Positions 5,014-41,298 of a DNA stretch of 47,153 nt are shown one piece after another. Both the position numbers and the translations under genes were made by a program. A model generated the notes under the pieces. The model was not told the DNA's origin. It saw only the letters and a list, made by a program, of their open reading frames with translations, and made no database searches. Each line of letters starts with the position of its first letter. The first letter of the stretch is position 1. The DNA is from a virus. The stretch spans positions 1 to 47,153 of IMG/VR virus record IMGVR_UViG_3300009159_000099; one strand, given 5' to 3'.

Positions 5014-5021
5014 ATAAATAT
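5014..5021 (-). promoter_or_regulatory. Candidate late promoter of the tail fibre gene
   Basis: The coding strand reads ATATTTAT, 18 bases before the fibre start codon at 4995. The same 8-mer stands in front of most virion-gene units of this window. No -33 TTG element lies at the spacing used by the early promoters. Promoter function is inferred from position and recurrence. Confidence 0.5.
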
Positions 5022-5040
5022 GTTAAAAAATTAAAGTACG

Positions 5041-5055
5041 ATATTTATATAAATA
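5041..5055. promoter_or_regulatory. Palindrome in the divergent region, with plus-strand ATATTTAT motif
   Basis: Bases 5042-5055 form a perfect 14-base palindrome, TATTTATATAAATA. Bases 5041-5048 are the ATATTTAT motif in plus orientation, 38 bases before the plus-strand gene at 5087. The site lies between two divergent genes. It could be the promoter of the small gene, an operator for a dimeric DNA-binding protein, or both. Confidence 0.45.
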
Positions 5056-5086
5056 AAACTAATATTTACTATAGAAAAATAAAGTT

Positions 5087-5257
5087 ATGAAATATGCAAT
5101 GCTACAAATCAAAAAAGAAACCCACGAACTTCTCAAAGAATATTGCGAAGAACATGGGTTCAAAATGGGTAGTTTAGTTGAAAATTTAATCAAAAAACAC
5201 GTTGGTGTTCATAAACCATCTTTTAATGTTTTAAAAGTAGATAAAATTAAAAATTAA
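5087..5257 (+). CDS. Small ribbon-helix-helix-like DNA-binding protein
   Basis: This 56-codon gene is the only one I find on the plus strand. The pattern MLQIKKETHELLKEYCEEHG followed by FKMGSLVENLIKKHV fits a short beta strand and two helices, as in CopG/MetJ/Arc-type ribbon-helix-helix repressors, which act as dimers. Its start at 5087 faces away from the tail fibre gene across a 91-base divergent region that contains a 14-base palindrome. Its last 11 bases overlap, tail to tail, the end of the SbcD-SbcC gene. I infer a transcription regulator, possibly of its own divergent promoter. The family call rests on pattern and length only. Confidence 0.7.
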   Translation: MKYAMLQIKKETHELLKEYCEEHGFKMGSLVENLIKKHVGVHKPSFNVLKVDKIKN

Positions 5258-8200
5258 TCTTACTGAATCCATCCACTTTTTTAATTTCAATTAAACCATC
5301 TACAATATCTCTCATTTGTTCTAAGTGAGATATAACCCATATAAAATCAAATTGAGTTTTAAGATATTGCATCATCATAAATAAGGATGATAAATTATCG
5401 GAATCTAATGTACCAAACCCTTCATCAATTACTAAAAAGTTTGGACGGGGTAAGTTACATATGTTAATAAGCGCAACTCTGATTGCCAATCCACTAACAA
5501 ACTTCTCCATACCACTACACATCTCTAAAGGCCATTCCTGGTCATCATAAACTATTTTAGCATTAATTGATTTACCATCCATTTCCATTACACAACTAAA
5601 ATCAACTACTTGCGCAAGAATGTTATTTACTTCGTTTTCAATAACAGGCAAAGCTTTAGAAATTAACTCATAAGGTATCCCATCTCTTTTTACAGAATCC
5701 AAATAGTAGGTGTATAAACGATTCTTTTCTTCCAAGTCTTTAACTTCATTCATCCTAACCTTTATCCCCTCTACAAACGAAGATATGGAGGCAATAACAC
5801 CCTTTGTATCACCAATCTTTCTACTCAATTCAGATACTTCTGCTTCTATTTCTTTTTTGGTTTTTTGTAAACCATTTATCATAGTTTCTATCTTAGTATT
5901 ACGTTTAATGGTTTCTTCATTTATATAATACTTACGAATATTTTCTTCAACAACTTCTAATTGATGCTTTGCTAATTCTATTTTAGTTTTTAATCCGTTT
6001 AATTCTGCTTTTTCGGTTTCAATTGTAGAATATCCTTTTTGATATTTTAATTTTAATGTTTGTAAATCTTTGTATTGTTCTTTGGATGTTTCAAAAAGAC
6101 TCATTACATTTAGAGAACCATTTACATCATCCAAACTATAATCTAAACTCGCTTCCAATCCCTCCAACTCTTCTTTTGCTTTTAATGCATCTTTTACGAA
6201 TACGTTATCACAACAGAATTTACAATTAGGGTCATATTCATGTGTTTCTAAATGAGCAATCTTATCTTTAATAGTTTGAATTTTTTGTTTTAATAATTGA
6301 TGTTTGGTATTTGCTTCACTATAATCTCTTTCTGCTTTAACATAATTAGAGTGAGCTTCTTCAATATCAATGTGTTCTTCTTCTGAAATATAAAACTTTT
6401 TAGTGGTTTCCATTGATTCAGAAACATCTGCAACCAATTTACTATAATTGGTAATAGTATTTTGTTTTGTTTCAAATGAAGAAGTATACCCATTCAATGT
6501 AGATTGTAATTTTGTTTTAGATTGATTCAAATCATCTATATTTAAATTACCATCCATAGGAACTAATTGAGCACTTAATCCAACAATTCTTTCTCCTAAA
6601 TCATCTCTATCATATGTTCTAATATCTAATGTTTTTTCTAAATCTTTAAGTTCGGTAGTTTTAGCAATAAATTCAATCTTTTTTTCAGCTAATTCTGAAG
6701 TAAAATCTATTTTCTTAAAGTTTTTAATTAAGATAGAAACTTCTTTAATATCTTCACTTGCAATATCGTATAATTTATCAAATATGTTAATACCCATAAA
6801 TTGTGCTAATAAATCTTTTCTTTCCGATTGAGATTTATCAATAAATAAAGCATTGTTTCCTTGTAATGATAATGCAGTTAAAATAAAATCTTCATATTTT
6901 CCTACATATTGTTCAATAATTTGATTCGTATCTCTTCTTTCATTTCCATTTAAGATTGTATTTAATCCATTTTCTTCTTTCCAAAACTGAACATCAACTT
7001 TAACATTTTTCCCTTTGTTAATTGTTTTGGCAGTTCTTTCAATGTGGTAATTCAATCCATCAATTTGAAAATGTAAATGGCAAACAAAATCCGTTTTACG
7101 ATTGTTTAAAATATTAGATGCTTTAAATGCTCTACTGCACTTATCGTATAAACAAAATGAAATTGCATCAAATAGAGAAGATTTACCAGCTGCATTTGGT
7201 GCAAATAATCCCATTAATCCACCAATTTTAGTAAAATCAATTTTGTTATTTTCTCCATAACTAAACATATTAGAAAACTCAAACTTAACTGGTTTCCAAT
7301 GTATGTTTCTTTGTATATCATCGTGAGTTATTCTACTATTAATATCTCTATTAATATTTTCCAACCCATCTAAATCTTCTTTAGTAACAAACGGCATCAT
7401 TCTACCAATATAATCATTTATAAGAGAGTTCTGATAGTTTACATCGGTTATATCTTCAAAATCTAATCTATTGTTTCTATTTCCTGTTTTTGATTTAGAA
7501 AGTGAATCTGTTCTAATAATTGTAAAATCCTCAACACCATATAATTGTTTTATTTCAGCAATTACTCGTTTAGTATCCGAAGTATCCGTATTTGATAAAC
7601 GAACTCTTAAACGAGGATTCTTTGGCATATCGGAAACCTTTGGAACATTTCCATTATCAATATCCATAGTATAATATCCATAATCATTTTGAATATCAAT
7701 TTCCTCATAACTCATTTTATCCAAATCCCAAACAAGCAAACCATGTTTCTCCAAAGTTTCACCAAAATTTTGCTGAACCAATGAACCTGCATATGCAATA
7801 GTACATCCTTTAGGAGATGTAATGATTTGTCTTTTATGAATATCTCCTAATAGAGCCAAATCATACCCATCAAACATATCGGGTGTAAAATGCCGAGATG
7901 ATACCACATATCCAATATCCGTTTGAGATGTATCTAATGGTCCGTGAAAAAGTGCAATCTTTTTATTACCAAAAAGTTTATTTGCAGGAATCCAATTTTC
8001 TCTTTTATCAAAAATAGAAAATACAGAAAAATCTACTCCACCAATTGAGTAAACTTGAGTATCTCGTAGGTATGTAAAGTTTGGTAAATTTAATGCCTCT
8101 ACGATTGGAGTAAGTACATCCAATCTATCGGAATTATTCATATTACAATCGTGATTTCCCGTAATAAGAATAGTTTCACACAATTTAGAACACTCCGTAA

Positions 8201-8453: not shown

Positions 8454-9011
8454 CTATTCATAAACTATCTTTTTTTCATGTCCTACTATTAAAGTTGGGT
8501 CAATATATGATTTATAACCTCTTTCTCTTGCTTTTTTTGCAAATGTAAAATCTTCCCATTGGTCTGGGTCCTGTGGTTCAAATGGGTCTATAATACAATC
8601 AAATACTTCTCTTTTAACCAACATAAACCCCATACCATTTGCTTTAACTTCCATTAAATCGGTTTTACCTACAATATCTTCTATTGTTAAAGTTTTTCCA
8701 TCTAATTTACAACAAGCAAATAAATCTGGTGATTTTTTGTATATTCCAGATATTATTGGTAAATTATGATTTACTAATTTTTCTAACATTTTAAAATTAA
8801 AAACTTGGTCACTATCAATCCACATATAATGTGTGGGTTTAAATACTTTTGCTCTATACAACAAAGCTTCTCTATTATAAAAAATATTTGGTGCGTATCC
8901 ACTAATATGAAACCAATCCCACTCTTTTGGCATACAATATAAAACATTTGTCCAACTATCTATGAATCTATTGGAAAAATCTCTACCAGGAAGTATAAAT
9001 CCTATTTTCAT
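8454..9011 (-). CDS. GT-A fold glycosyltransferase-like protein
   Basis: The 185 residues contain a DSD motif (66-68, in YMWIDSDQVF) that would bind a metal-nucleotide-sugar. NGMGFMLVKREVF (125-137), WEDFTFAKKARERG (152-165) and a late His (178) follow, the usual order in short GT2-like enzymes. The start overlaps the primase stop by one base (TAATG), so the two are probably translated together. The acceptor is unknown; in phages such enzymes modify phage DNA, virion proteins or host surface sugars. Its place between recombination and primase genes makes DNA-base glycosylation possible, but nothing in the sequence proves it. Confidence 0.75.
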   Translation of the reverse strand: MKIGFILPGRDFSNRFIDSWTNVLYCMPKEWDWFHISGYAPNIFYNREALLYRAKVFKPTHYMWIDSDQVFNFKMLEKLVNHNLPIISGIYKKSPDLFACCKLDGKTLTIEDIVGKTDLMEVKANGMGFMLVKREVFDCIIDPFEPQDPDQWEDFTFAKKARERGYKSYIDPTLIVGHEKKIVYE

Positions 9012-9952
9012 TATAAACTATTAATTTTTGATAACAACAAATCTTCTATTCCAAATTCTTTTGTAGAATTTAATTCTTCGTAAAACTTATTATACCCCAT
9101 ATCAGCAGCATCTTTATCTTTTAGATTCATAAATTTAACATTTATTCCTTGCTTTCTAAAATATTCAGATGCTTTCAATGCTTCCGTTTTAGCATCATTA
9201 TCTAATGAAATAACAATATCACTAACCCCATTCATAAAGATTTTTTCAACTAATAATTTAGATGGAAACTTCCCTAATAGGGGAATTGCGTTTCTTCTGA
9301 TTGTAATTGCATCAAATACCCCCTCACATAAGATAATTGGTTCATTCCAATTTATTTGGGAATCAAAACAAATTACATTTTTACTGATTGGTGGATTTTT
9401 ATATTTCATCTTCTCATCTATATAATAAGAACGAGAAACAAAGTAGTTTAATGAACCATCGCAATTATAAGATGGGATAATTACTCTTCTACTATATAAA
9501 CCTTCTTTACAATACCCAATACCATACTTTACAATTTGTTTTTCTGTTATACCTCTTTGAATAAGGTAGTTCATTGCTTGTTTGTATTCTGGATTAAACC
9601 CCTTTGGTTGTTCTGCTAATGAAATAAACTCCTTTGGTAATGAAATAAATATTTTAGCATCACTATCTTCGTTTTGTGGGTTATAGTGTGAATCACCATA
9701 TATCTCTCTAATAACCGTAATAGTTTTCCTATCAACATCTAACTTTTTTAATAAGGATGTGAGTTTCTTACCACCACTATTACATGTCCAACAATGCCAA
9801 TGTTGTGTTTCGGTATTTACTTGTAATTTTTGTTTGTGATGATGGCAGAATGGACAATGAAATGCTAATTCGTTTCCCCTTAAAACGGAAAAACTTCCTA
9901 ACACATTAGATAGTGTTGTAGTTATTTTTGTTTTATCTGTATTATTTAGCAT
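9011..9952 (-). CDS. DNA primase (T4 gp61/DnaG-like)
   Basis: This 313-residue protein makes RNA primers for lagging-strand synthesis. A zinc-binding region has CPFC (33-36) and CWTC (54-57). A TOPRIM domain carries CEGVFDA (E210), SLDNDA (249-254) and KDKDAAD (278-284). I place the start at the ATG at 9952 rather than an in-frame codon at 9970, because the -7 box of an early promoter covers 9957-9964 and leaves only four bases before this ATG. The transcript would then be nearly leaderless. The gene ends in a TAATG overlap with the glycosyltransferase. Confidence 0.9.
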   Translation of the reverse strand: MLNNTDKTKITTTLSNVLGSFSVLRGNELAFHCPFCHHHKQKLQVNTETQHWHCWTCNSGGKKLTSLLKKLDVDRKTITVIREIYGDSHYNPQNEDSDAKIFISLPKEFISLAEQPKGFNPEYKQAMNYLIQRGITEKQIVKYGIGYCKEGLYSRRVIIPSYNCDGSLNYFVSRSYYIDEKMKYKNPPISKNVICFDSQINWNEPIILCEGVFDAITIRRNAIPLLGKFPSKLLVEKIFMNGVSDIVISLDNDAKTEALKASEYFRKQGINVKFMNLKDKDAADMGYNKFYEELNSTKEFGIEDLLLSKINSL

Positions 9953-9956
9953 GATA

Positions 9957-9987
9957 CAAAGATACAACAATTATTTCAAATTTCCAA
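9957..9987 (-). promoter_or_regulatory. Early promoter of the primase gene (Bacteroidota type)
   Basis: On the coding strand TTG (9987-9985) is followed after exactly 20 bases by TATCTTTG (9964-9957), matching the Bacteroidota -33/-7 consensus. The primase ATG begins four bases beyond the -7 box, so transcription would start at or next to the start codon. Confidence 0.85.
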
Positions 9988-9988
9988 A

Positions 9989-10405
9989 TTAATTAAACCA
10001 TTCTTCTGGAATAAATTTATCCGCATACAAAAAACCATTCTTATCACACCAATCTGCATAAGATGTTTTTGAATTTTTTGAAATTTTGTTTTTTGATGAT
10101 GTAAATACAAACCTAATATCAAATTCAGGATGTTGTTCTTTTATGAATAGGTGTTTCTTTCTATCAGCAGGAACAAATCTACCTTTGGTTTCTATAAAGA
10201 TACCATTTGGTAATTTAAAATCTGGATTGTATGTGTGTTTTGATGCAGGTACAATGTATGGAATCTTTTCGGATTCATATTGTACGGGAATTCCTTTACT
10301 ATCTATTTGAATTGATATTGATTCTTCCAAGCCTGATTTGAAACCATGCTTTCTTGCTACCCAACCTTTTTTGGTTGGTTTTTTTGATGTAACTTTTTTA
10401 GCCAT
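9989..10405 (-). CDS. T7-type endonuclease I (Holliday junction resolvase)
   Basis: The 138 residues align along their length with phage T7 gp3. The active-site residues keep their spacing: E27, D62, E72 and K74 here against E20, D55, E65 and K67 in T7. They lie in SGLEESI and in PDFKLPNGIFIETKG. Shared blocks include VPASKHTYNPDF, RKKHLFIKEQHPE and ADKFIPEEWF. The family resolves four-way junctions and branched DNA before packaging. T4 uses an unrelated enzyme (gp49), so this is a T7-like part in a T4-like genome. It lies directly upstream of the primase, with a basic N-terminal tail. Confidence 0.92.
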   Translation of the reverse strand: MAKKVTSKKPTKKGWVARKHGFKSGLEESISIQIDSKGIPVQYESEKIPYIVPASKHTYNPDFKLPNGIFIETKGRFVPADRKKHLFIKEQHPEFDIRFVFTSSKNKISKNSKTSYADWCDKNGFLYADKFIPEEWFN

Positions 10406-10407: not shown

Positions 10408-10614
10408 TTATTTGAAAGTATCAGAATACTTTTTATCAATTAATGCACCACCTCTACCTGTTTTGAATTTTGCAGCAGTTAAAACTTGCTCATCTGCTTT
10501 TTTTAAATCATCGGTAGTGTATGGTGTTTGTGCGTGCTGACCTGCTGCAAATGAAATTTTATCAACTCCTAATGATGCTTGGTTTGCTTTGTATAATTCT
10601 TCTATTGTTGGCAT
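10408..10614 (-). CDS. Small protein of unknown function
   Basis: This 68-residue protein (MPTIEELYKANQASLGVDKI...) has no motif I recognise. It is soluble and slightly basic at its end (KFKTGRGGALIDKKYSDTFK). It ends two bases before the endonuclease I gene begins, so the two are probably one unit. A candidate late motif lies 18 bases before its start, so it may be made late or carried in the virion. Confidence 0.7.
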   Translation of the reverse strand: MPTIEELYKANQASLGVDKISFAAGQHAQTPYTTDDLKKADEQVLTAAKFKTGRGGALIDKKYSDTFK

Positions 10615-10632: not shown

Positions 10633-10640
10633 ATAAATAT
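10633..10640 (-). promoter_or_regulatory. Candidate late promoter
   Basis: The coding strand reads GATATTTATATATAAAC around this site, with the shared ATATTTAT core 18 bases before the start at 10614. Function is inferred from recurrence in front of other units. Confidence 0.45.
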
Positions 10641-12644: not shown

Positions 12645-14036
12645 TTATTGCATTGCTTTAGTTGATACTACATACATATTTGTTGAATCAAATGAAACTA
12701 ACGAAAGTACATCTTTTTTACTAACACCAATAGATGCACTATATGAACTACCAGATGGTTGTAATAATAATGGCGATAGTGATGCCGTTGAATTTGTACC
12801 CGTTGTAATCAAAAGTGTTGCACTCATACCTGGCGTTATATTTGTAGCTCTAATATGTGTAGTTACAGTATTTGCGAGAGTTAAAGTAAAATAACTTCCT
12901 AAGTTCATATCCAATGATGCAGTAAGAGATGCTATAGTTATTGGAACTATGTTTCCTTTTACACTACCAGTTACTGTCAATGAACCTGTTATAATTTCAT
13001 TACCAATAAATGTGTTAGAACCTGTTGTTGCTACTGAACTTGTCCAAACATTTAATGAAGATGTATATGTTGCTAATGATGTAAATTTACTAGAATCTAT
13101 TGATGCCGAAGATATCAATGAACCCGTTATAGTTGCTAAAGAAAGATTTTTACCTTCTAAAAAACTTGCAGTTGAAATTAATGAACCGGTTGTAGTTAAT
13201 AATGTTAAATTTTTAGTTTCAACAAAACTTGCAGTTAATATCAATGAACCGGTTGTAGTTGCTAATGATAAATTTTTAGTTTCAACAAAACTTGCAGTTG
13301 AAATTAATGAACCACTAATTGTTGCCAATGATAAATTTTTACTTTCTAAAAAACTTGAGGTTAATATTAATGAACCCGTTGTAGTTGCCAAAGAAACGTT
13401 TTTAGCTTCTAAAAAACTTGCAGTTAAAATTAATGAACCACTAATTGTTGCTAAAGAAGTATTTTTAGTTTCAAATGAACCAGTTTTAGTATTAATATCT
13501 GCAATATGTCCGTTAACACTTGCACTAAATGTATTTAAAGATGCAGTTGCAGTATTATAAGATGCAGTTACACTTAATAATGTTGTAAATTTTGTATCAA
13601 TACTTCCACTCCATATATTTGCAGATGCAGTATAGGCATTCAATATCGTTAATTGAGAAGAACCAGATATTACACCATTAGTTGAAGCAATTGCTCCTGA
13701 TATAGATGTTGCATTTACATTTCTATATCTAAAAGTTGTACTACCTAAATCAAATGTATTATCATTATTTGGGATAATTGAAGAACTTATATCTGCATTA
13801 AATACAACATTATCAATTGCATTATCACCAATAGTAATTGTACCACCCAATGTGATATCTCCACTTACATTAAAAGAACCAGAGTTTACACTATTTAATT
13901 TTGCTAATGTAATTTCAGTTGAACCATCAATTCCAACCTGTAAAGATTGTGATGTGGTATTTACATACATTTCACCCGCAGATAGAGTTGGTTTTGCTGC
14001 CGTTGTACCTCTTCTTAATTGTAATATTGCTGCCAT
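12645..14036 (-). CDS. Tail fibre protein with 21-residue tandem repeats
   Basis: This 463-residue protein begins with a segment (ILQLRRGTTAAKPTLSAGEM) typical of phage tail-fibre attachment domains. A short beta-rich stretch to about residue 180 follows. Residues 188-333 then hold about seven tandem units of 21 residues (KNLSLATTTGSLI-type), which probably form a trimeric coiled or beta shaft. The last 110 residues form a separate head-like domain. Two candidate late motifs and a terminator lie between it and the gene at 14164-15423, so it appears to head its own unit. Confidence 0.85.
   Translation of the reverse strand: MAAILQLRRGTTAAKPTLSAGEMYVNTTSQSLQVGIDGSTEITLAKLNSVNSGSFNVSGDITLGGTITIGDNAIDNVVFNADISSSIIPNNDNTFDLGSTTFRYRNVNATSISGAIASTNGVISGSSQLTILNAYTASANIWSGSIDTKFTTLLSVTASYNTATASLNTFSASVNGHIADINTKTGSFETKNTSLATISGSLILTASFLEAKNVSLATTTGSLILTSSFLESKNLSLATISGSLISTASFVETKNLSLATTTGSLILTASFVETKNLTLLTTTGSLISTASFLEGKNLSLATITGSLISSASIDSSKFTSLATYTSSLNVWTSSVATTGSNTFIGNEIITGSLTVTGSVKGNIVPITIASLTASLDMNLGSYFTLTLANTVTTHIRATNITPGMSATLLITTGTNSTASLSPLLLQPSGSSYSASIGVSKKDVLSLVSFDSTNMYVVSTKAMQ
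13038..13475 (-). repeat. About seven 63-bp tandem repeats in the fibre gene
   Basis: The units encode residues 188-333 with a strict 21-residue step; successive Phe/Ile landmarks fall at 208, 229, 250, 271, 292 and 313. Units are similar but not identical. They alternate between Thr-Thr-Thr-Gly-Ser and Thr-Ile-Ser-Gly-Ser versions, as expected if arrays expand by recombination and then drift. Confidence 0.9.
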
Positions 14037-14056: not shown

Positions 14057-14064
14057 ATAAATAT
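14057..14064 (-). promoter_or_regulatory. Candidate late promoter, proximal copy
   Basis: The coding strand reads CATATTTATAG, with the ATATTTAT core 20 bases before the fibre start at 14036. A second copy lies 42 bases upstream at 14099. Confidence 0.5.
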
Positions 14065-14098: not shown

Positions 14099-14106
14099 AT
14101 AAATAT
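14099..14106 (-). promoter_or_regulatory. Candidate late promoter, distal copy after a terminator
   Basis: The coding strand reads ACGATATTTATAG. It sits nine bases after the hairpin terminator of the preceding gene, where a new transcript would be expected to begin. Confidence 0.5.
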
Positions 14107-15432: not shown

Positions 15433-16056
15433 TTATTGAACGTAAGTTACGGTAATTGGAATAGTTTGTGAACCCCCTGTTTCATTACCATAAACTGTAA
15501 TAGTAGTTTTAATGGTAGATGTTAAAGATGGATTCGGTATAAATTTGAATGTTAATCCTTTAGATACTGCTGCAGTTGCTGAAATATCATCACCAATAAA
15601 AATAGGTACTGAACCAACTTCCGATGTTACACCTGCACCAATAATATCACCTGCATTTTTGTTTGATAATACAATGGTGTATCCTAAACTTCTATTTCCT
15701 GCTGGAGATGTTGTTGGTGATAATGCAACTTCACCACTTTTTTGATTAACTGAAATGTTAGGAACACCAAATTCAACTACTGGAATACGAGTTGTATTTT
15801 TTGGAAGTGTTACTAATTTATATTTCATTACCTGAGTTTCATCAGGATTTGCTTCTAATACAGGCATATTTTTAATTGCTGCATCGTAGTAAGCTGAACC
15901 AAGTGGGTGAGCTGGTTCATATAATGAATAATCAATCTCATCATCTGCCAAAGCAAATTGAGTAATGTTTAAACCCTGTCCCGCTGCCAGTTTCTCTCTA
16001 CCTTTTTTTGTAAGGATTGCATCTACTGTTAATTCGGTATTACTTAAATATCCCAT
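15433..16056 (-). CDS. Conserved virion protein (tail or baseplate associated)
   Basis: The 207-residue protein opens with MGYLSNTELTVDAILTKKGREKLAAGQ and continues with ITQFALADDEIDY. I associate this helical start with structural proteins of large T4-like phages. The second half (from about 85) is beta-rich and Ig-like, ending TIPITVTYVQ. A candidate late motif lies 24 bases before the start. It is followed by its partner gene after nine bases. Function within the tail is unknown. Confidence 0.75.
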   Translation of the reverse strand: MGYLSNTELTVDAILTKKGREKLAAGQGLNITQFALADDEIDYSLYEPAHPLGSAYYDAAIKNMPVLEANPDETQVMKYKLVTLPKNTTRIPVVEFGVPNISVNQKSGEVALSPTTSPAGNRSLGYTIVLSNKNAGDIIGAGVTSEVGSVPIFIGDDISATAAVSKGLTFKFIPNPSLTSTIKTTITVYGNETGGSQTIPITVTYVQ

Positions 16057-16080: not shown

Positions 16081-16088
16081 ATAAATAT
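16081..16088 (-). promoter_or_regulatory. Candidate late promoter
   Basis: The coding strand reads CTATATTTATATC, with the ATATTTAT core 24 bases before the start at 16056. A TTG lies 21 rather than 20 bases upstream of TATATTTA, so a weak host-type promoter cannot be excluded. Confidence 0.5.
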
Positions 16089-16105: not shown

Positions 16106-19100
16106 TTACTCAACTTCCAAAATTGGTTCATTTGCACTTCTACCTGCTTTATTTACTTTTAATGTATTAGGGTTAGTTGAGAATACCTCAATTGGAGGAG
16201 TTCCATCCAAAGTAGTTGCTGCCGTGTTTTTTGAACCTCTAAAATAAGAATTTTCCATTCCTCTTGTCAAATCAGATACATTTCTAAAGTGAGTTGGTAA
16301 ATATCCACTAACAGGTGTTACTTCAATTATACTCCCAGTTCCTGCGTTAATTACTTTAGAACCAGAAAATGGTTGTATATTTAAAGATGTTTCGTAGTAA
16401 ACCGATGATGATAAAATCATACCATCTCTTGGGTCACCAACACCATTTGTAACTGTTTTAAATTTAACAATATTTATTGTTTTTTGTTCTTTAACTAAAT
16501 CAACTTTTACTCTTTCTTTTACAATTCTTCCATTTTTATCAAAATATGTTCTAATTGCATATCCGTTTTCAGCATACAATCCAAATCCAATATTTTCATA
16601 ATCAGTTTGACCAACTACAATATTACTATTAAGTATATCAATTTCAGTAAGTATTGTAGGGTCTTTTAATCCTGCATCTATTAAAATATCTTTTTGATAA
16701 GATTCAGCTTCTACTAAAGTAGTTTTAGAAGTTGGAATTTCAACATCATATTGATAATTATCAACATTTAAATTTTCACTTAAATTTGCATCAACTATTG
16801 AATCATATTGATTATTTTCTGCAGTAAATAAATATTCAGAATTTGCATCTAATATTATTTCTTTTTGAATATTTTCAGAAGTTATTAAAGTAGATTCATC
16901 ATAATGTATTGCAGTTTCATATTGTTCATTTTCACCAGTTGGTTTTTTTTGAGCAATTTTACTTCTTTCTAAAAAATGTGGTTCAATTAAAAGACCCGTT
17001 GTTGCTTTTGCTCTTGCAGGCAGCATATTTTTAATATCTTCAAACATAGATTTTTCATATAACTTAATCAAGTTAATATAAGCATATATGTCTATATTAT
17101 TAAATCTTTTAAAATAATAACTTCTTAAACTATCCAAATCTTTATAATTTGATTTGTATTTATCGGAAGGGTCACCAATATAATTATCTAAATTAATTCC
17201 ACCAAATGATTTAGCAATATCAATATTTAACTCTTTTGTAGGAGAGAAAAATAAACCAACTCTATTTGAATCAGTTGGAGATTGGTCAAATGATTTTCTA
17301 GTAGCTCTACTATTAACCGATAAATCTGTTAGTAATGTTTGTTCTTCAAAACGTATTTTATTAGTTGAATATCTTGATGAACCAAAATCTGGTATATCTA
17401 ATACAACTGTTCTATCTATTGCTTCAAAATTATATGGATAGGTATTTATGTTTGAAAATCCATATGTACTTGCCGAATATGATGCAGAAGGATTTTGTGA
17501 ATATAATAAAGCAGAACTACCACTTTCATAATTATTTCTTTTTAAACTTCCACTAAAGTAAATATTTGTATCTACATTTGGTAATGTAGTATATGTTGCT
17601 AAGTTTTTAGGATATTCAAAATCTAAACGGAAAAACAAATCATCAGTTGATGCTGATATATGGTTTCCATTAATCATTTCTGGAAAAGAAACGTGTTCGT
17701 AAAATCTTTCCTTATTTAATGGTGTAGACCATAAACGGAATTCATCAATACTACCACTAAAACTACCACCTAATGTGATAAAAGAACCACTATTCCAATT
17801 TGAACTACCACTTGCAACACTTGCAGTTGTGTTATTTTGGAATAAAGTTCTTTCTTTATCTGCTTGTCTAACATTTAATTCTAAGTTGTGAAAACTACCA
17901 CTAACTTCTCTACTTACAGATATACCAAAAAATGAACCATTAAATATAGGTAATATAGAAGAACTAATTGCATTTGTAGTTGAATAATCAAATATTACAT
18001 ATCCATTATTACTATTAGCAGAACCACTTAATTTTATATCCCAACCACTACCTGAAATTAAAGTATATAACCCACTTGTTGTAGGTTTTACAAAAAATTC
18101 AATTGTATCTGGTCTTCTATTTTTTTCTGTATTTTTCCATTCAAAATCAATTCTAGAACCATTATTCATTTTAAGAGCAGTTGTAATATTATCCATTACT
18201 AATTTACTCTTATTGGTATCCGTAACTTCGGGTCCTCCAAATTCTAAAATAGAAAGATTTGATGATGGAATACCATAACAACTTAATAAAGCATATACAC
18301 CTCTGCGTGTACCTTTGTGTTTTAATAGATATGGTAAATTATTTACAATTCTTCTCCAAACTTCATATGTTCTTTGTTTAACAGGATTAGTATTTGTAAC
18401 TCCACCATTTATATCTTTTCCAAAAACATAATCCCAAAGTTTAGAATCTGTTCCTAAATTCTTAGCATCCCAATCAAAAGATTTAAGTGTTTCAAATAAG
18501 AGTTTATCAGAAATACCATTTTTTGATTTGTAACCCAAACCTCTACTTTTTTCAATTGATTTTGTATAAAAATATATGTTATCAAAATGTTGTCCAACCA
18601 TTGATAAAAATAATAACATACTTTCATTATCTGTATTATTTACAATGAATTGTGGAATATTGTTTTGAACCCAATTTGGATTTTCTATATCAAAATCTCC
18701 TGCTAATGTTATAATATTTTCATACCAATTTGTTACATTTGAATTTGTTGATAACAATCTAATACTACCACTATAAGGCCAACTTATTGAAGATGATGTG
18801 TATAAGAAATTTTCAAATCCATCAAATGCATTTATTAATTGGTCTTTTTTTAATTGTTGTTTTTCTCTTTCTTGTTGCGCAGAAATTGTATTTGTGTGTC
18901 CATAAGATGATGGGTCATAGTAAGATGCTGATATTAATGATTCATAATTTTCAATTAACTGAACTTTATAAACAAAATTATCTACTCTTTCTTTTGCAGA
19001 ACTAAAATGTACAAAGTTATTCCATGCATATGTAGAACCAGTTGTATATTCAATATTTAAATCATCCGTATTAACCAATGATGAACTCAAATACATACCA

Positions 19101-21030: not shown

Positions 21031-21038
21031 ATAAATAT
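21031..21038 (-). promoter_or_regulatory. Candidate late promoter of the large baseplate gene
   Basis: The coding strand reads AGATATTTATAATAAAAG, with the ATATTTAT core 14 bases before the start at 21016. An A-rich leader without a Shine-Dalgarno sequence follows, as is usual in Bacteroidota. Confidence 0.5.
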
Positions 21039-26669: not shown

Positions 26670-27107
26670 TTAATTATTTACATTTATTTGTACTGAATCA
26701 CTTAAATTTGGATTTGATACTAATGAAAATTTAATATCCAATCCAATGGTATGGTTATCTATATCATTGTTATTGTAATCAAATATTATTTCATCTATAT
26801 TTAAATATGGTAACCAAATAGATACTGCATCAACTATTGTATTTTCTATTCTTTTATCTATTTCCCCTTCAATAATTGGTTCAAATAATAATTTCCAAAT
26901 ATCGCAACCAAATTCTGTATTCATAATTCTTTCACCTTTATGTGTAAGAATTAAATTTTTTAAATTATCTTTTGCCTGAGATAAAGTTGTATAATTAACG
27001 GGAAATATTCCATTTGAATTGGATGTTTTGTTTATTCCAATTCCTATTATTTTATAATCATTTTCAGTTAAATCTACTACATTTACTTTACCTAACTCTA
27101 TTGCCAT
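26670..27107 (-). CDS. Baseplate wedge protein gp25-like (GPW/gp25 family)
   Basis: The 145 residues contain the gp25 core: AKDNLKNLILTHKGERIMNT, then EFGCDIWKLLFEP, then an IDKRIENTIVDAVSIWLPYL helix. This is the most conserved component of contractile-tail baseplates and nucleates sheath assembly. Its length is close to that of T4 gp25. It starts in a TAATG overlap with the stop of the preceding gene and leads directly into the gp6-like gene. Confidence 0.95.
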   Translation of the reverse strand: MAIELGKVNVVDLTENDYKIIGIGINKTSNSNGIFPVNYTTLSQAKDNLKNLILTHKGERIMNTEFGCDIWKLLFEPIIEGEIDKRIENTIVDAVSIWLPYLNIDEIIFDYNNNDIDNHTIGLDIKFSLVSNPNLSDSVQINVNN

Positions 27108-27652
27108 TATTTAAATCTTTTTACCAATTCTGAATAATCTCTTGTTAATGCTTTCATAGTTGCATCTTGTAATGCATCTCCTGTTGATTCTAATTGTTGT
27201 GGTATGGATTGTGGGACACCGGATTCTCTATAATCCATAGTTTCCCAACCATCTTCTTCAACACTCATTTGTGGTTGTAGCATATCTAATACACTTGCCC
27301 CACTACCCATTCCTCCCTCTGCTCTTTGCTCGGCTGAAAATGGAGTTGTCATATTAAGAATCTCATTAATCATAGGGTCTTTTGAAAATTCCCTTTTAGG
27401 TTGTTGAGTTTTTTGAGGTTGTAATGTAGATGTTCTACTTTTTTGCAAAACACGTGTGGCTTCCGTAAACGGGTCTACCGATTTAATAGCCTCCTTTAAT
27501 GTAGGAGCTTGTGGTTTTCTGTTTGAATTTAATTTAACTGTACCGGATTTAACAAGCTTTGTTATTTCAGAAATAACTTGCTGTCTAACCTGTGTTTTAA
27601 CTTCATTCCTAACCACTTCTTTAATAAGTGATAATAAAATGTCTGATTTCAT
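27107..27652 (-). CDS. Putative virion assembly protein, unknown function
   Basis: The 181-residue protein has a basic helical N-terminus (LIKEVVRNEVKTQVRQQVISEITKL) likely to be amphipathic or coiled. A Pro/Gln/Lys-rich middle and an acidic C-terminus that ends KALTRDYSELVKRFK follow. It lies between the spike-region genes and gp25 and overlaps gp25 by TAATG, which suggests a baseplate assembly or chaperone role. No family is recognised. Confidence 0.7.
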   Translation of the reverse strand: MKSDILLSLIKEVVRNEVKTQVRQQVISEITKLVKSGTVKLNSNRKPQAPTLKEAIKSVDPFTEATRVLQKSRTSTLQPQKTQQPKREFSKDPMINEILNMTTPFSAEQRAEGGMGSGASVLDMLQPQMSVEEDGWETMDYRESGVPQSIPQQLESTGDALQDATMKALTRDYSELVKRFK

Positions 27653-27675: not shown

Positions 27676-27683
27676 ATAAATAT
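27676..27683 (-). promoter_or_regulatory. Candidate late promoter
   Basis: The coding strand reads TTATATTTATTAAC, with the ATATTTAT core 23 bases before the start at 27652. It lies in the short gap after the 27696-28925 gene and would drive the baseplate wedge unit. Confidence 0.45.
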
Positions 27684-30554: not shown

Positions 30555-31244
30555 TTACATAGTCAAGTCTCCTGTTCTATCAAATTCACTATATAACTCC
30601 ATTTGCTTGTCTTTCATTTTATTGACAATCTTAGTTATATAATGAGTTGGATGTCCAGTCATCTCTCTAATAAGTAGATATAAAGATTTTTTATTGAAAC
30701 TTTCTATGTATTCTGCTCTTCTGAATAATTCTAAAACTGCATCTGCGATTTGCATATCTCTTTTCTTTGGGAAATGATTTTCTAAATGAATATCCCAATA
30801 TGCCAACATTCTTTTATTAAATGTACGAAATTCATCATTTATAGTTTCTTCTTCCCAATTGTTTTCAGTATCCCAATGTTCGGGTAAGTTTGATATAATA
30901 TCAGTATCTTTATATCGTTTGTAATTTGCGTTGTTATTTAAAATCAAATAGTTTCTGGCAACAATAGTAAAATAAGAGAATGCTTTACCTTTACCTTCTT
31001 TGTACATATGAATCTTTTCAATCATAAATGTAACAACTTCAGACATTACATCTCTAGGGTCATCATCAAAATAACTGAATTTCCATTTGTTATAAACTAT
31101 TTCTGCAAGTTTATCAAATGCAGGTTTTATTCTATCTTTATAAACTTTATCTTTAACTCTTTGGTCATCGGTTGAGTTATACTCTATAATAGCATCTTCT
31201 GTATCTTTTGTAAAATATTGTTTACTTTTGGGTTTTCTTGGCAT
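30555..31244 (-). CDS. Late-transcription sigma factor (T4 gp55-like)
   Basis: The 229 residues follow the pattern of gp55-type sigma factors of T4-like and cyanophages. A basic start leads to EDAIIEYNSTDD, then KIKPAFDKLAEIV-like helices. The region-2 core is YFDDDPRDVMSEVVTFMIEK (59-78) and GKGKAFSYFTIVARNYLILN (84-103). These proteins replace the host sigma factor and direct RNA polymerase to late promoters. A helix-turn-helix region 4 is not evident, as expected for gp55. It may recognise the ATATTTAT motifs listed here. Confidence 0.88.
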   Translation of the reverse strand: MPRKPKSKQYFTKDTEDAIIEYNSTDDQRVKDKVYKDRIKPAFDKLAEIVYNKWKFSYFDDDPRDVMSEVVTFMIEKIHMYKEGKGKAFSYFTIVARNYLILNNNANYKRYKDTDIISNLPEHWDTENNWEEETINDEFRTFNKRMLAYWDIHLENHFPKKRDMQIADAVLELFRRAEYIESFNKKSLYLLIREMTGHPTHYITKIVNKMKDKQMELYSEFDRTGDLTM

Positions 31245-33067: not shown

Positions 33068-33071
33068 AGTA

Positions 33072-33102
33072 TAAATATACAACATTTATTTCATAAAAAC
33101 AA
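33072..33102 (-). promoter_or_regulatory. Promoter of the UV endonuclease gene
   Basis: TTG (33102-33100) is followed after exactly 20 bases by TATATTTA (33079-33072), and the ATG comes four bases later. The -7 box also contains ATATTTAT (33078-33071), so this site could serve both the host sigma factor and the phage late sigma. Confidence 0.75.
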
Positions 33103-34218: not shown

Positions 34219-34404
34219 TTAATCTCTTTCAATGTTTATTAATTCAGCTATTCTATCAGAAACTTTTCTAATATCTTGAACTAATTGAATAACATCGTTA
34301 GGAGCAAGTTTCATAGCACCCGATGCTGCTCCCTCCAAAATTCTTAATTTACCATCCAACACAACCAATAGGTTTTGGATTTGACTTTTGTACATCATAC
34401 TCAT
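34219..34404 (-). CDS. Small helical protein of unknown function
   Basis: The 61 residues (KSQIQNLLVVLDGKLRILEG... VIQLVQDIRKVSDRIAELI) form two amphipathic helices around a Gly/Ala/Pro turn. The ATG at 34404 could be replaced by Met3 or Met4. It directly precedes the coiled-coil membrane protein and is likely its partner or co-translated with it. A candidate late motif lies four bases upstream. Confidence 0.65.
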   Translation of the reverse strand: MSMMYKSQIQNLLVVLDGKLRILEGAASGAMKLAPNDVIQLVQDIRKVSDRIAELINIERD

Positions 34405-34408: not shown

Positions 34409-34416
34409 ATAAATAT
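34409..34416 (-). promoter_or_regulatory. Candidate late promoter after a terminator
   Basis: The coding strand reads AAATATTTATTACTATG, placing ATATTTAT four bases before the first ATG. It comes directly after the hairpin terminator of the heat-shock gene. Confidence 0.45.
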
Positions 34417-34874: not shown

Positions 34875-34934
34875 AATAATAATTGTTTAATTGTTTAAAA
34901 TTTAAGTATAGTATTTCAATTTTTACACCAAAAC

Positions 34935-34962
34935 AAAAAAGTATGACAAAATGTCATACTTT
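34935..34962 (-). terminator. Terminator after the HD-hydrolase gene
   Basis: On the minus strand a perfect 11-base-pair stem containing GTATGACA and TGTCATAC closes on a three-base loop. It ends in a run of T (34940-34935). A third copy of TGTCATAC at 34972-34979, followed by a T run on the plus strand, could form an alternative hairpin. Confidence 0.85.
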
Positions 34963-34991
34963 ATGTAAAAATGTCATACTTTTTTATCCTA

Positions 34992-35636: not shown

Positions 35637-35682
35637 GTTGCTTTTGTTGCTTTAAAGTTTAAGTATAGTAAAAAAGATAAAT

Positions 35683-35713
35683 CAAATATACGAAAAATTT
35701 TTAACTTTTCCAA
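35683..35713 (-). promoter_or_regulatory. Early promoter of the HD-hydrolase gene
   Basis: TTG (35713-35711) precedes TATATTTG (35690-35683) by exactly 20 bases on the coding strand, an exact match to the Bacteroidota consensus TAnnTTTG. The leader of about 40 bases contains ACTATACTTAAACTTTAAA. Confidence 0.85.
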
Positions 35714-35714
35714 A

Positions 35715-36032
35715 TTATTTTAAATATATTTCTTTTTTTGTTAAAATTTTATAAAGTATTTCTATTTCCTCTTCAAATTCTAATTCAGGAAGGTCATCAT
35801 CAAATAATCTTAATGTGTATAATGGGTTACCATCATCATCTAAAAATGCATCCGATTCGGAACTAAATAATGCAGGTATTGTTTCAATATCCGGCAATTC
35901 TTTTTCATCAATATCTACTAAAGGAATTACATAGTAATGGTACGAATCTAATCCGTCTTCTACGTCTAATCTATGACACTTCCATTTTTGGAAGCTAGAT
36001 TCTGTTATGGGTGTTTGTGGAACTATAATCAT
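35715..36032 (-). CDS. Acidic protein of unknown function
   Basis: This 105-residue protein is strongly acidic (DDGNPLYTLRLFDDDLPELE, EFEEEIEILYKIL). I start it at the ATG at 36032 (MIIVPQTPITES) because the -7 box of an early promoter lies three bases upstream. An in-frame TTG at 36038 would overlap that box. The acidic character could point to a DNA mimic or an inhibitor of host proteins, but this is speculative. Confidence 0.7.
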   Translation of the reverse strand: MIIVPQTPITESSFQKWKCHRLDVEDGLDSYHYYVIPLVDIDEKELPDIETIPALFSSESDAFLDDDGNPLYTLRLFDDDLPELEFEEEIEILYKILTKKEIYLK

Positions 36033-36035: not shown

Positions 36036-36066
36036 CAAAGATACGAAAAGTTTTACAAATTAACAA
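36036..36066 (-). promoter_or_regulatory. Early promoter giving a near-leaderless transcript
   Basis: TTG (36066-36064) is followed after exactly 20 bases by TATCTTTG (36043-36036). The ATG begins three bases further on. Confidence 0.85.
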
Positions 36067-36073
36067 ATTAAAC

Positions 36074-36799: not shown

Positions 36800-37863
36800 T
36801 ATTGAATATTCTTACTCAATTTTTCGTATTTACTATAAACATCAGAAGTAGTAGCTTGTGTATTGGCAATTTCTTGTCTTAATCTATTTTGCGCTTCCAT
36901 ATCTCCCTGCTGTGCTCTTTGGAAATCATCGGATTGTTGTGATATCTTTTGTTCCAATGATGTTTTAGCAGCTTCCACATCCGCTTTAATTGTATCTTGT
37001 TCTTTTTTCAATGCTTTTTCTTTAGCAACTAATGGTGTGTCACCAACTGCCACTATTGTAGAAGATTTTGAAACAACTTGTGGTTTAATAGATGTATCAT
37101 TTGATGTATCGGTTGTTGCAACCATATCCCAAGTAGTTGTTGATAATCCGGGTAATGTTGCATTTTGAAAACATTGTTTAACATCTTCAAAATCTTTTTG
37201 TATTATTTTCAAAAGAGAACTAACTCCGGTTAAAAATGTTGCCATTTTTTTAGTATCTAATGATTTTTCTTTATCTTGTGCAGTATCATTTTTTAATTGA
37301 TTTACATTATACGCATTAGGATTGCGTTCTGATTGTAATGCCCAATCAAATGTTTCAAATCTATCGGATGGTCTTGAAATATCTGGAGATAGTGTATAAT
37401 TGATTTGATTAATTAATCCAATAGGAATTCCCATTTCAAGTTCAGTTTCATAGATATAATCAACTGATTTAACACCTGCATTTTTATTTGCAATATCTCT
37501 TGTATTTCCAATTGCTTCTAACTGCTTATCCGATATTTCAATAATAGGTATAGTTTTACCCATAGGTATTCCCATTACTTTACCATTTTCAACAATGTCG
37601 TAGTGTGGATTATTGGAATTTTTTATATCGGAAAGTGTTTGTTCCGATAAAATGTAAAAATCATTTATCTTAACAACAATACCATTGACAGCTAAAAGTG
37701 GAATTAACTTATCTTTTGGGATAGGTTTTCCAACTTCTAACTCTAATGGTTTTATTATTGCAATTTGTTCCTTTGTAGGTTCTTCTGGGAGTGCGGATAT
37801 AATCCATTTATCTTCCTTCTTTTTGTACCTCTTTGGGTTTTGCTCTATTGGTTGCTTTGCCAT
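36799..37863 (-). CDS. Protein of unknown function with C-terminal coiled coil
   Basis: The 354 residues have a basic, Pro-rich start. A mixed middle follows (GKPIPKDKLIPLLAVNGIVV, ELEMGIPIGLINQINYTLSP). The C-terminal coiled coil (about 275-350) contains KEQDTIKADVEAAKTSLEQK. The start overlaps the upstream gene by 56 bases. No later in-frame Met near the N-terminus fits better, so I keep the full frame. A virion-associated role is possible, since its size and composition differ from the small accessory genes around it. Confidence 0.7.
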   Translation of the reverse strand: MAKQPIEQNPKRYKKKEDKWIISALPEEPTKEQIAIIKPLELEVGKPIPKDKLIPLLAVNGIVVKINDFYILSEQTLSDIKNSNNPHYDIVENGKVMGIPMGKTIPIIEISDKQLEAIGNTRDIANKNAGVKSVDYIYETELEMGIPIGLINQINYTLSPDISRPSDRFETFDWALQSERNPNAYNVNQLKNDTAQDKEKSLDTKKMATFLTGVSSLLKIIQKDFEDVKQCFQNATLPGLSTTTWDMVATTDTSNDTSIKPQVVSKSSTIVAVGDTPLVAKEKALKKEQDTIKADVEAAKTSLEQKISQQSDDFQRAQQGDMEAQNRLRQEIANTQATTSDVYSKYEKLSKNIQ

Positions 37864-38164
37864 TTATATCTTTCCAAACTTTATTATAAATAGTAGTTTC
37901 CTTAATTTTTGGTGAAATTTTACCTTTTAATCGGAATAACTCTCTTTGTAAAGTTTGATATTTACTGCCATCAATTGCTTCAGAAATGATACCATTCACA
38001 TCCAATTGAGATTTCATATTACGATACTGAACTGGCTCATAATCTTGCTTCTCATCTTCTATATGTTTGTAACCAAGAATATGTGCAACCGCAATAGTTG
38101 TACCAAAATCCTCTGCTAATCGGTCATAAACTTCCTCTCTTAACATATCTTCTGAATTATACAT
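37808..38164 (-). CDS. Protein of unknown function
   Basis: The 118-residue protein has an acidic helical start (MYNSEDMLREEVYDRLAEDF) and a strongly basic end (KATNRAKPKEVQKEGR). The end overlaps the next gene by 56 bases, a large overlap for this genome. The ATATTTAT motif abuts its ATG directly. The helical body with a basic tail could bind nucleic acid. No family is recognised. Confidence 0.65.
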   Translation of the reverse strand: MYNSEDMLREEVYDRLAEDFGTTIAVAHILGYKHIEDEKQDYEPVQYRNMKSQLDVNGIISEAIDGSKYQTLQRELFRLKGKISPKIKETTIYNKVWKDINGKATNRAKPKEVQKEGR

Positions 38165-38172
38165 ATAAATAT
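38165..38172 (-). promoter_or_regulatory. ATATTTAT motif directly before a start codon
   Basis: The coding strand reads CGATATTTATATG, so the motif touches the ATG at 38164. If it is a promoter, its transcript would start inside this gene. It may therefore serve the next gene or be a chance match. Confidence 0.25.
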
Positions 38173-39003: not shown

Positions 39004-39004
39004 A

Positions 39005-39262
39005 TTAATAAGATTTTATGTTTTCTTCACGATGAGTTTCATTTTTACCACTACCACTTGTCTGTGTTGTTATGGTTTCACCTCTACTTGTAAAATAATG
39101 ATAATTTAATCCATCCGAAAAACGATAAACCTTTACATCATCTTTTTCAAAAAGATAGGTAACATCGTAATCATCATTATTTGTTTTTGATTTTTCAATG
39201 CCATTTCCATAGCAGGAAACCAATATGATTGAAATTAAAAGTAATCCTATTATTTTTTTCAT
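39005..39262 (-). CDS. Small lipoprotein
   Basis: The 85-residue protein has a classical lipoprotein signal: basic MKK, a hydrophobic stretch and the lipobox LVSC with the lipidated Cys at 17. The mature part (YDVTYLFEKDDVKVYRFSDGL, then YHYFTSRGETITTQ) resembles small lipoproteins of Bacteroidota of the DUF4884 kind. It was probably acquired from a host. In phages such lipoproteins can block superinfection, but nothing here shows that directly. Confidence 0.8.
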   Translation of the reverse strand: MKKIIGLLLISIILVSCYGNGIEKSKTNNDDYDVTYLFEKDDVKVYRFSDGLNYHYFTSRGETITTQTSGSGKNETHREENIKSY

Positions 39263-39282
39263 TTTTTTATTATTTTAAAAGT

Positions 39283-39735
39283 TTACCAAGATGAAGAGTA
39301 ATAGTAATCGCCACTATTATCAGATAATGCTTCTTCTAAAATCTCAATAGTGTTTTTAATACCATCAAAGTACCATTCATCATATTCAGTTCCACCAAAG
39401 AAGAAACCACTTGTAGTTGGTAATAATTCCTCTGCTAATGAATTATCGTTTAGTATTTTCTTACATATTTCCAACAAATCTTCTAACTGAACTTTACTAA
39501 CACAATACTCACCACAATTATCTACACCATTCTGTACATTCTCAACGAACCATTGGTGTATTTGGTTTTGCTTTCGCCAATATCCAATTTCCTCAACAAT
39601 ATGAGTAACCCTTTCAGGTTTAATGTTTGTAGGTTCACCACCTTTGGTTACTTCTACATTATACTGCTCTTCTGGTTTTTGAAAGCTCCATTGTTTAACA
39701 TAGGTACGCTTCTCTAAATACATGTCTAATCCCAT
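39283..39735 (-). CDS. Conserved phage protein starting MGLDMYLE
   Basis: The 150-residue protein begins MGLDMYLEKRTYVKQW and contains EEIGYWRKQNQIHQWFVENV and GFFFGGTEYDEWYFDGIKNT. I recognise this as a family scattered through phages and prophages without known function. Conserved Trp, His and Tyr residues suggest an enzyme or binding fold. The leader contains repeated AAACTTAAAACTTAAA, as for neighbouring accessory genes. Confidence 0.75.
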   Translation of the reverse strand: MGLDMYLEKRTYVKQWSFQKPEEQYNVEVTKGGEPTNIKPERVTHIVEEIGYWRKQNQIHQWFVENVQNGVDNCGEYCVSKVQLEDLLEICKKILNDNSLAEELLPTTSGFFFGGTEYDEWYFDGIKNTIEILEEALSDNSGDYYYSSSW

Positions 39736-39759
39736 AATTTTATAATTTAAGTTTTAAGT

Positions 39760-40005
39760 TTAATAACAATATTCTGATTCGTAAAAAGTAGTGGTTGGGT
39801 AAGTGTTAAGAATCTTATCACCATTCCTTACATATTTAGATAAGTAAGTAGTATATTCCTCTTCAGTATGAATGGGGAAATCTATCGTACTACCATTGGG
39901 TCTAGCAATTGTCATCCTAACACATTCGTAATTAGGAATATAGCCGGTAAATTTCTTTGAAAAGTATTCAGCATCTGTTTTAAAAGTAAATTGAAAATTT
40001 GACAT
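39760..40005 (-). CDS. Small protein of unknown function
   Basis: The 81 residues (MSNFQFTFKTDAEYFSKKFT... VRMTIARPNGSTIDFPIHTE) form a compact alpha/beta protein with many Tyr. Its leader carries AAACTTTAAAACTTAAAACTT just before the ATG, a shared leader style of this region. No family is recognised. Confidence 0.65.
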   Translation of the reverse strand: MSNFQFTFKTDAEYFSKKFTGYIPNYECVRMTIARPNGSTIDFPIHTEEEYTTYLSKYVRNGDKILNTYPTTTFYESEYCY

Positions 40006-40037
40006 AAGTTTTAAGTTTTAAAGTTTAACAATAATAA

Positions 40038-40397
40038 TTACAATCCCTGCTCTCTACGCAGTTGTTGTTCGTGATACTCAGCTTCCGAATATTCCACAAC
40101 TTTAAGATAAGGAGAAAATTTAGTTTCGTAATAACCACGTAGGTTAGCCATATCAATCAATGAATCAATGAACGACTTACGAACATAAGTCATATCGGAA
40201 GAACCAAACCCTTGGTCTTCTGGCCAATCCATATAATCATCAGCAACATCTGAAAGTGCTGAATGAACTGCATCACCATAAGTGATGATACTTTTTGTAA
40301 ATCGTCCCTCAACTGGGAAAGCATTTTTAACAACATCAAACCCTTCTACTAAAGAAGCGGTGGCTAAAACTGAACTAAGGTTAAATGGTAAGCTCAT
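40038..40397 (-). CDS. Protein of unknown function, early gene
   Basis: I start this 119-residue protein at the ATG at 40397 (MSLPFNLSSVLATASLVEG). An in-frame TTG at 40424 lies in the leader, upstream of the TTTAAACCCCTT element that precedes several starts here. Downstream are ADDYMDWPEDQGFGSSDMTY and a Glu/Tyr-rich helical end. It has its own early promoter at 40439-40469. Nothing in the protein names its function. Confidence 0.7.
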   Translation of the reverse strand: MSLPFNLSSVLATASLVEGFDVVKNAFPVEGRFTKSIITYGDAVHSALSDVADDYMDWPEDQGFGSSDMTYVRKSFIDSLIDMANLRGYYETKFSPYLKVVEYSEAEYHEQQLRREQGL

Positions 40398-40438
40398 ATC
40401 GGAAAGGGGTTTAAAGTAGCTCAACCCGAACTACATAG

Positions 40439-40469
40439 TAAAGATACAAAATTCTGGATTAAAAGTCAA
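40439..40469 (-). promoter_or_regulatory. Early promoter, Bacteroidota type
   Basis: TTG (40469-40467) is followed after exactly 20 bases by TATCTTTA (40446-40439). From -33 to -7 it is almost identical to the promoter at 45207-45237, with one spacer difference, so it was probably duplicated. Confidence 0.85.
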
Positions 40470-40477
40470 GTAAAACT

Positions 40478-41275
40478 TTAATTATTTTCATCTTTTTTAA
40501 AAGGTTTTTCGTACTCTATCTTATTGGTAATTTTACTGTTGGCAACCTCTCTCATTTTCTGTTTAGTTTCTTCACTATGATTTTTACCTAATCGTGATGG
40601 CGGTTTAGCTCCACGTTTTTTAGCGGATTCTGCCATTTTTTGTTTAGTTTCTTCAGAAAATGGTTTTCTTTTTTTTCCTACATTTGATTTGGATATTTTT
40701 TCTTTTGTTTCTTCACTCATTTTTTTACCCAAACGTAAATTTCTTAATTTTTCTTTAACTTCATCAGTATGTGTTTTTCCAAAAAAATTATTCAAATCAC
40801 CATTATGTATATGTTTATGTGATTCACTCATTTTTTTTATAGCGTCCTCTGAATGTTTCCACCCAATCGGTTTTGATGGTGGTTTAATTCCACGTTTTTT
40901 TGCCGATTTACTCATTTTTTGTTTAGTTTCTTCGCTAACAATTTTATTTTTATTTGATAAACTATTTTTCATGCGATGTTCGGCGGTATGTATTAGCCCA
41001 TTAACACCATCCCCACCATTTGTCATATTGACCAATTTTCCCAACCCTAAATCAAATCTACCATAATACATAATAAGTTCTTTTTCTTTTCCACAAGCTT
41101 CTTCCCATGTTAGATTATCTTCAATAATTTCAGCATCGTACCCAACTTTATTTACTATGTTTTTCCAATGTTTATTTCGGTTTGAATGTGAATATAATCG
41201 TTTTTTTGTTTTACCTATTCCTACATAAAAAACATCATTATTATCTTTTCTGATATGTTTGTATGTATAAGCCAT
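40478..41275 (-). CDS. GIY-YIG homing endonuclease with NUMOD3 repeats
   Basis: The 265-residue protein starts with a GIY-YIG-like nuclease module: YKHI and VFYVGIGK (15-22), R26, and the conserved TNGGDG (85-90). From residue 114 it carries a series of NUMOD3 DNA-binding motifs, with SEETKQKMSKSAKKRG repeated in variants up to the end. Such free-standing enzymes cut related genomes lacking the gene and so spread themselves. It sits between an early promoter and the RNA ligase gene, an intergenic insertion. No intron or disrupted gene is visible around it. Confidence 0.9.
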   Translation of the reverse strand: MAYTYKHIRKDNNDVFYVGIGKTKKRLYSHSNRNKHWKNIVNKVGYDAEIIEDNLTWEEACGKEKELIMYYGRFDLGLGKLVNMTNGGDGVNGLIHTAEHRMKNSLSNKNKIVSEETKQKMSKSAKKRGIKPPSKPIGWKHSEDAIKKMSESHKHIHNGDLNNFFGKTHTDEVKEKLRNLRLGKKMSEETKEKISKSNVGKKRKPFSEETKQKMAESAKKRGAKPPSRLGKNHSEETKQKMREVANSKITNKIEYEKPFKKDENN

Positions 41276-41290
41276 ATATTAATTTTTTAT

Positions 41291-41298
41291 ATAAATAT
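41291..41298 (-). promoter_or_regulatory. ATATTTAT motif before the homing endonuclease
   Basis: The coding strand reads CATATATTTATATAAAA, with the core 15 bases before the start at 41275. A -33 TTG at 20 bases is absent. Late expression of the homing endonuclease is a possible consequence. Confidence 0.4.

Follow-up and report, generated by a model that had tools for sequence, protein, structure and literature searches.

Genes and box sites in the window

The stretch examined, virus record IMGVR_UViG_3300009159_000099, comprises 47,153 bases (the whole of which is called the window below) and has a GC content of 30%. Almost all of its genes lie on the minus strand, and they include T4-type baseplate and tail-fibre genes as well as SbcC-like, primase, RNA ligase and kinase genes. 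The source is a large uncultured T4-like phage. Its host would probably belong to the Bacteroidota, an assignment that we infer because of the host-type promoters described below and of the cultured Flavobacterium phage immuto. For comparison we used a 176-kb contig (G001), which is the same as the window in both proteins compared, four more contigs of 198-245 kb (G002-G005), and three shorter ones (G006-G008). G001-G005 (176-245 kb) are referred to as the five large relatives, and the ORFs in the relative contigs are simple ORF calls.

A preliminary description of the window had listed copies of the 8-mer ATATTTAT in gaps between genes and proposed them as late promoters. All of these copies were present, with every coordinate exact, including the one in plus orientation at 5041. 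Six minus-strand copies lie 14-24 bases from an ATG, the range that had been put forward for virion genes. The copy at 5014-5021 precedes the tail-fibre gene 1213-4995 (18 bases to the ATG) and was kept in all seven relatives that have an orthologue; that at 10633-10640 precedes 10408-10614 (18 bases) and was kept in six of seven relatives; that at 14057-14064 precedes 12645-14036 (20 bases) and was kept in G003, G004 and G005. The box at 16081-16088, before 15433-16056 (24 bases), was found in nine of nine relatives, immuto and Mel-JY01 included. The last two are at 21031-21038, before 16106-21016 (14 bases), and at 27676-27683, before 27107-27652 (23 bases), a gene closely followed by the gp25-like and gp6-like baseplate genes.

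The other copies have different spacings. The plus-strand box at 5041-5048 is 38 bases from the ATG of ORF 5087-5257 and was kept in G003, G004, G005, G007 and G008 and absent in G002 and G006. A second minus-strand copy before 12645-14036, at 14099-14106, lies 62 bases from the ATG, directly after a terminator-like hairpin and T-run. Four further minus-strand copies, with 4-15 bases to the ATG, stand before genes among which no virion gene was recognised. These are at 33071-33078, before a UV-endonuclease-like gene; at 34409-34416, after a terminator-like hairpin and 4 bases from the ATG of the small ORF 34219-34404, kept only in the close relatives G006 and G008; and, as uncertain boxes, at 38165-38172, before the small ORF 37808-38149, and at 41291-41298, before the homing-endonuclease-like gene 40478-41275. 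The box at 38165 was not kept in G004, its only orthologue, and no orthologue of the 41291 site was found in the relatives.

Enrichment of the box in gaps between genes

Counted over the whole window on both strands, ATATTTAT was not enriched (19 copies versus 19.98 expected from dinucleotide shuffles). In the gaps alone (1.7 kb, 80% AT), for which a test against shuffled sequence had been proposed along with the motif, the sense word occurred 11 times versus 1.03 expected, none of 5000 dinucleotide shuffles reached this number (maximum 6), and ATATTTAT was the top-ranked 8-mer of the window gaps. Its reverse complement was found three times in the gaps versus 1.1 expected (p about 0.1). Within the 45 kb of genes there were four sense copies, at 3149, 9645, 16828 and 26501, slightly fewer than the five or so initially estimated.

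The box in related phages

ATATTTAT was also the top 8-mer before genes in the five large relatives, with 163 sense and 11 reverse-complement copies within 70 nt upstream, pooled counts that overstate independence because these genomes are kin. Its distance from the start codon peaked at 15-30 nt, with extremes of a few nt and of over 50 nt. A fuller box, ATATTTATA, was present in tandem gaps in 121 sense copies versus 1 antisense copy, mostly 15-30 nt from the ATG; gaps bearing it were common in tandem or divergent arrangement and rare in convergent arrangement. Alignment of the sites gave [T/G]ATATTTATA, which would be a better spelling of the box than the 8-mer, followed by three free bases and, 4 nt past TATTTATA, by a position that favours purines (A 65%, G 22%, C 0%). 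No -33 or -35 element was found upstream of the box in these aligned sites, no upstream position exceeding 0.25 bit, as had been supposed from the window.

In T4, late promoters read TATAAATA from -13 to -6 and are recognised by gp55 together with gp33 and gp45. This consensus occurred 22 times within 70 nt upstream of genes in the five large relatives, versus 149 times for TATTTATA. As a control, the same approach was applied to the late region of T4. There the top-ranked 8-mer was TATAAATA, lying 14-28 nt ahead of the start codon, so the method detects late promoters already known and gives their orientation correctly. The box was again prominent in immuto and in Mel-JY01 (PP395634.1). The recorded host of the latter is the cyanobacterium Microcystis elabens, yet its tube, capsid and sigma proteins place the phage with the Flavobacterium phage; its host assignment may deserve checking.

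Conservation at orthologous sites was strict although these phages share only 35-50% protein identity. Upstream of the orthologues of tube, sheath, head-completion and other structural-block genes, the position of the box stayed constant, in many cases to within a few bases. Among 244 IMG/VR loci, the window sites at 27676, 16081, 10633 and 21031 were kept in 58/58, 17/17, 9/9 and 6/6 distinct upstreams, respectively. By contrast with these, operon-internal controls had no box at IMG/VR loci (gp6, 0/59; gp25, 0/64; sigma gene, 0/94; total, 0/217).

We classified genes as virion or replication genes from the annotation of immuto, leaving out PhoH, GroES, GroEL and sigma, for which timing is unclear. 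Among genes with a true upstream gap, orthologues included, the box preceded 35 of 54 virion genes versus 2 of 23 replication or nucleotide genes; by family majority, it was present in 9 of 13 virion versus 0 of 6 replication families (p = 0.011). Virion genes differ among themselves in promoter class, since a conserved promoter of host type (TTTGG...TTATCTTTG or a near match) replaces the late box at the portal gene of G001-G005.

Taken with the strand bias, the distance to the ATG and the missing -33 element, the virion preference and the conservation support the late-promoter reading of the preliminary description. It does not hold for the copy at 33071, and the copies at 38165 and 41291, which precede non-virion genes, lacked a conserved equivalent in the relatives examined.

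Host-type promoters

Primary-sigma promoters of Bacteroidota have TTG at -33 and TAnnTTTG at -7. The early-type genes showed just this arrangement, with TTTGG or CTTG, a spacer and TAnnTTTG, the latter being the -7 box described for Flavobacterium (PMC9723704). The late boxes did not: they had no -33 signal, and the last position of the -7 element was not G. On the minus strand of the window, host-type promoters were found at 9957-9989 (ATTTGG...TATCTTTG), before the primase-like gene, at 35683-35715 (ATTTGG...TATATTTG), 36036-36068 (ATTTG...TATCTTTG), 45207-45239 (GCTTGAC...TATCTTTG) and 46750-46782 (GCTTGG...TATCTTTG), and a promoter-like site at 40439-40470 (CTTGA...TATCTTTA). Early-type promoters and late boxes lie, for the most part, in different segments of the genomes.

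The primase-like ORF 9011-9970 was called from a TTG that falls inside the promoter at 9957-9989; the conserved layout suggests that its translation starts at an ATG a few bases past the -7 box. We also observed that the gaps 34875-34991 and 35637-35714 share ACTATACTTAAA(T/C)TTTAAA before the gene, which is possibly a common leader or a further promoter class.

The copy at 33071 had been placed within a host-type -7 box (GCTTG...TATATTTA), and the relatives bear this out, since they mostly read TATATTTG there. Among 40 distinct upstreams, TAnnTTTG was present in 25 and the late-type spelling in 1, that of the window itself. A role of this copy as a late promoter is therefore ruled out by homology. 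The promoter heads a run of genes for the endonuclease, a deformylase, a small ORF and a sigma factor. Because a host-type promoter heads the sigma run, the sigma factor could precede the late genes in expression.

A candidate late sigma factor

In four of six contigs, one conserved ORF drew attention through matches to sigma-70 region 2 that stayed below threshold; in the window this ORF is 30555-31244 on the minus strand. It encodes a predicted late sigma factor of 229 residues, a distant homologue of T4 gp55 in region 2. The identity of the protein across many contigs is about 80% or higher; homologues with 35-45% identity occur in immuto, in Mel-JY01 and in a 484-kb phage, and the family is encoded by at least 561 IMG/VR stretches. 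No relatives were found in bacterial genome contigs, and the annotated sigma factor of Rhodothermus phage RM378 did not match the family. In the 484-kb phage, whose homologue is 45% identical, the box was absent from the 90 kb examined.

Direct searches with PHROG 234 (the curated gp55 family model) and PHROG 223 (gp45) gave nothing usable: PHROG 234 did not match the window protein and matched the immuto homologue only with an E-value of 0.5. A match of PHROG 234 in G005 at 113477 contained stop codons and looks spurious. Profile-profile comparison was therefore needed. The family profile matched that of nine gp55 sequences with a probability of 89% over about 100 collinear residues, scoring 44.8 against the gp55 profile versus at most 27.0 in 150 column-shuffled controls. 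When the families of G003 were compared with gp55, the sigma family came first of 212 (40.1 versus 24.3 for the runner-up).

In the alignment, Y10, Y22, D65, E69 and Y91 pair with gp55 Y10, W23, E70, D74 and Y97. Positions 10 and 23 of gp55 are absolutely conserved aromatics (PMC2988020), and in the T4 structure Y97 is a promoter-pocket residue (for the -12 base) while E70 and D74 contact the polymerase clamp (PMC7892883). Three of four gp55 contact residues were matched (Y97, E70 and D74), the fourth, E77, aligning with T72. Family members also matched general sigma models, the best match being to TIGR02937 at 1e-5 for one homologue. The AlphaFold models were of moderate quality (pLDDT 72); Foldseek ranked sigma factors first but with E-values of 0.1 and above, and we give this result no weight because these values are weak. 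Sequence searches of solved structures had no sigma factor among the matches.

As to the partners of gp55, a gp45-like clamp family was found (probability 96%), and gp33 was not found with a single T4 sequence as the query. Inspection of the sigma C-termini for the T4 sliding-clamp-binding motif gave no clear match. Just past the high end of the window, G001 encodes a small protein (47625-48002) with a sigma-70 region 4 (E 5e-9; match at 47838), which adjoins early-type promoters and is absent from the other five contigs searched. We rejected it as the late sigma factor since it occurs in one genome only and lies just outside the window.

Interpretation

The findings support the view that the box is a T4-type late promoter of variant spelling, TATTTATA rather than TATAAATA, its promoter role being deduced from sequence comparisons. 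The gp55-type protein encoded at 30555-31244 is the likely reader of the box, and the simplest one to propose. We hold with good confidence that ATATTTATA is the -10-like box of late promoters in a lineage of large T4-like phages, probably with Bacteroidota hosts, and that it serves with this sigma factor in an early/late switch. Early on, host RNA polymerase with its primary sigma factor would read the TTTGG...TAnnTTTG promoters, including that of the sigma run. The diverged gp55-type sigma, built on sigma region 2, would then bring the polymerase to the short box, with no -33 contact, and switch on tail, baseplate and most head genes. Transcription presumably starts just past the box, at which the purine-biased position hints, and early-type genes would be expressed before late ones. 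More tentatively, the protein might be a single-chain late sigma factor, in which a conserved C-terminal helix-turn-helix-like part replaces gp33 beside the gp55-like region 2, the specificity having shifted from TATAAATA to TATTTATA.

The late promoter might instead be read by a primary or alternative sigma factor of the host, as a -7 variant lacking the -33 element. TATATTTA is indeed a single base away from the early-type TATATTTG, and several Flavobacterium sigma motifs vary around TAnnTTTG (PMC9723704). We consider this unlikely, as the two spellings stay separate, the late sites conservedly having A and not G at the last position and nothing at -33, as they fall largely in other genome segments, and as the phage encodes a sigma factor of its own. 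Still less probable is that the word works within the mRNA and signals translation or RNA processing ahead of start codons. This would account for a word 15-30 nt ahead of the ATG in hosts that do without Shine-Dalgarno signals (PMC6847099). Against this, some copies stand a few nt from the ATG and others over 50 nt away, divergent gaps often hold the word and convergent ones seldom do, and gp6 and gp25, operon-internal virion genes that also need translation, never have it. That the copies are chance AT-rich words, as their shuffle-like number in the whole window could suggest, is next to impossible given the gap-only shuffles, the 121:1 strand bias and the complete conservation at orthologous sites.

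The box and the gp55-type sigma would provide a late-promoter code and a candidate late sigma factor for uncultured T4-like phages of a group that is very common and for which none was annotated before, and early and late genes could be called from sequence alone. We found no prior description of the box, of Flavobacterium phage promoters or of Mel-JY01 in the open-access literature. T4 gp55 with TATAAATA and the window sigma with TATTTATA would also form a natural pair in which to study how a minimal sigma factor chooses its box.

Comparison with known systems

The arrangement resembles that of T4 in its 8-bp AT-rich box at the -10 position, without a -35 element, in the equal distance to the ATG, in its place before virion genes, and in that the phage encodes a sigma homologous to gp55 and a clamp resembling gp45. 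It differs in the box itself, TATTTATA having two central bases altered relative to TATAAATA, in the length of the sigma factor (229 residues, of which about 90 at the C-terminal end form a conserved part, versus 185), and in that gp33 was not found. Since the boxes do not conform to the T4 consensus, the system formally belongs as a variant that works like that of T4. There is precedent for lineage-specific drift of the box along with a diverged gp55, namely (N)ATAAATA in KVP40 and S-PM2 and CTAAATA in Aeh1 (PMC1524935, PMC2984593, PMC2988020). In these phages, however, the TAAATA core is kept, whereas the core is TTTATA here.

The more distant Rhodothermus phage RM378 (NC_004735.1) has a similar yet different word: its top upstream 8-mers in 90 kb were TATTTAAA and TTATTTAA, with 13 and 15 copies, respectively, versus fewer than 1 expected, and these are possibly its late box.

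Primary-sigma promoters of the Bacteroidota type serve the early-type phage genes and the run that holds the sigma gene, while the late box has no -33 element and ends in TTTATA.

A cultured relative is phage immuto (vB_FspM_immuto, NC_055915.1), which has the box before its terminase, portal, sheath, tube, hub and tape-measure genes. Its gp118, encoded beside baseplate genes and annotated merely as hypothetical, is homologous to the predicted sigma factor, with 36% identity. Unlike the window, immuto has a further class, TATATTTAGGTA, before other genes. Many of its small genes and non-virion genes are preceded by a second recurrent upstream word, TTCGTATATTTAGGTATCAATAATTAAAA, possibly the early promoter class of immuto. 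As immuto is a cultured member of the group, the control of late genes can be tested in it at once.
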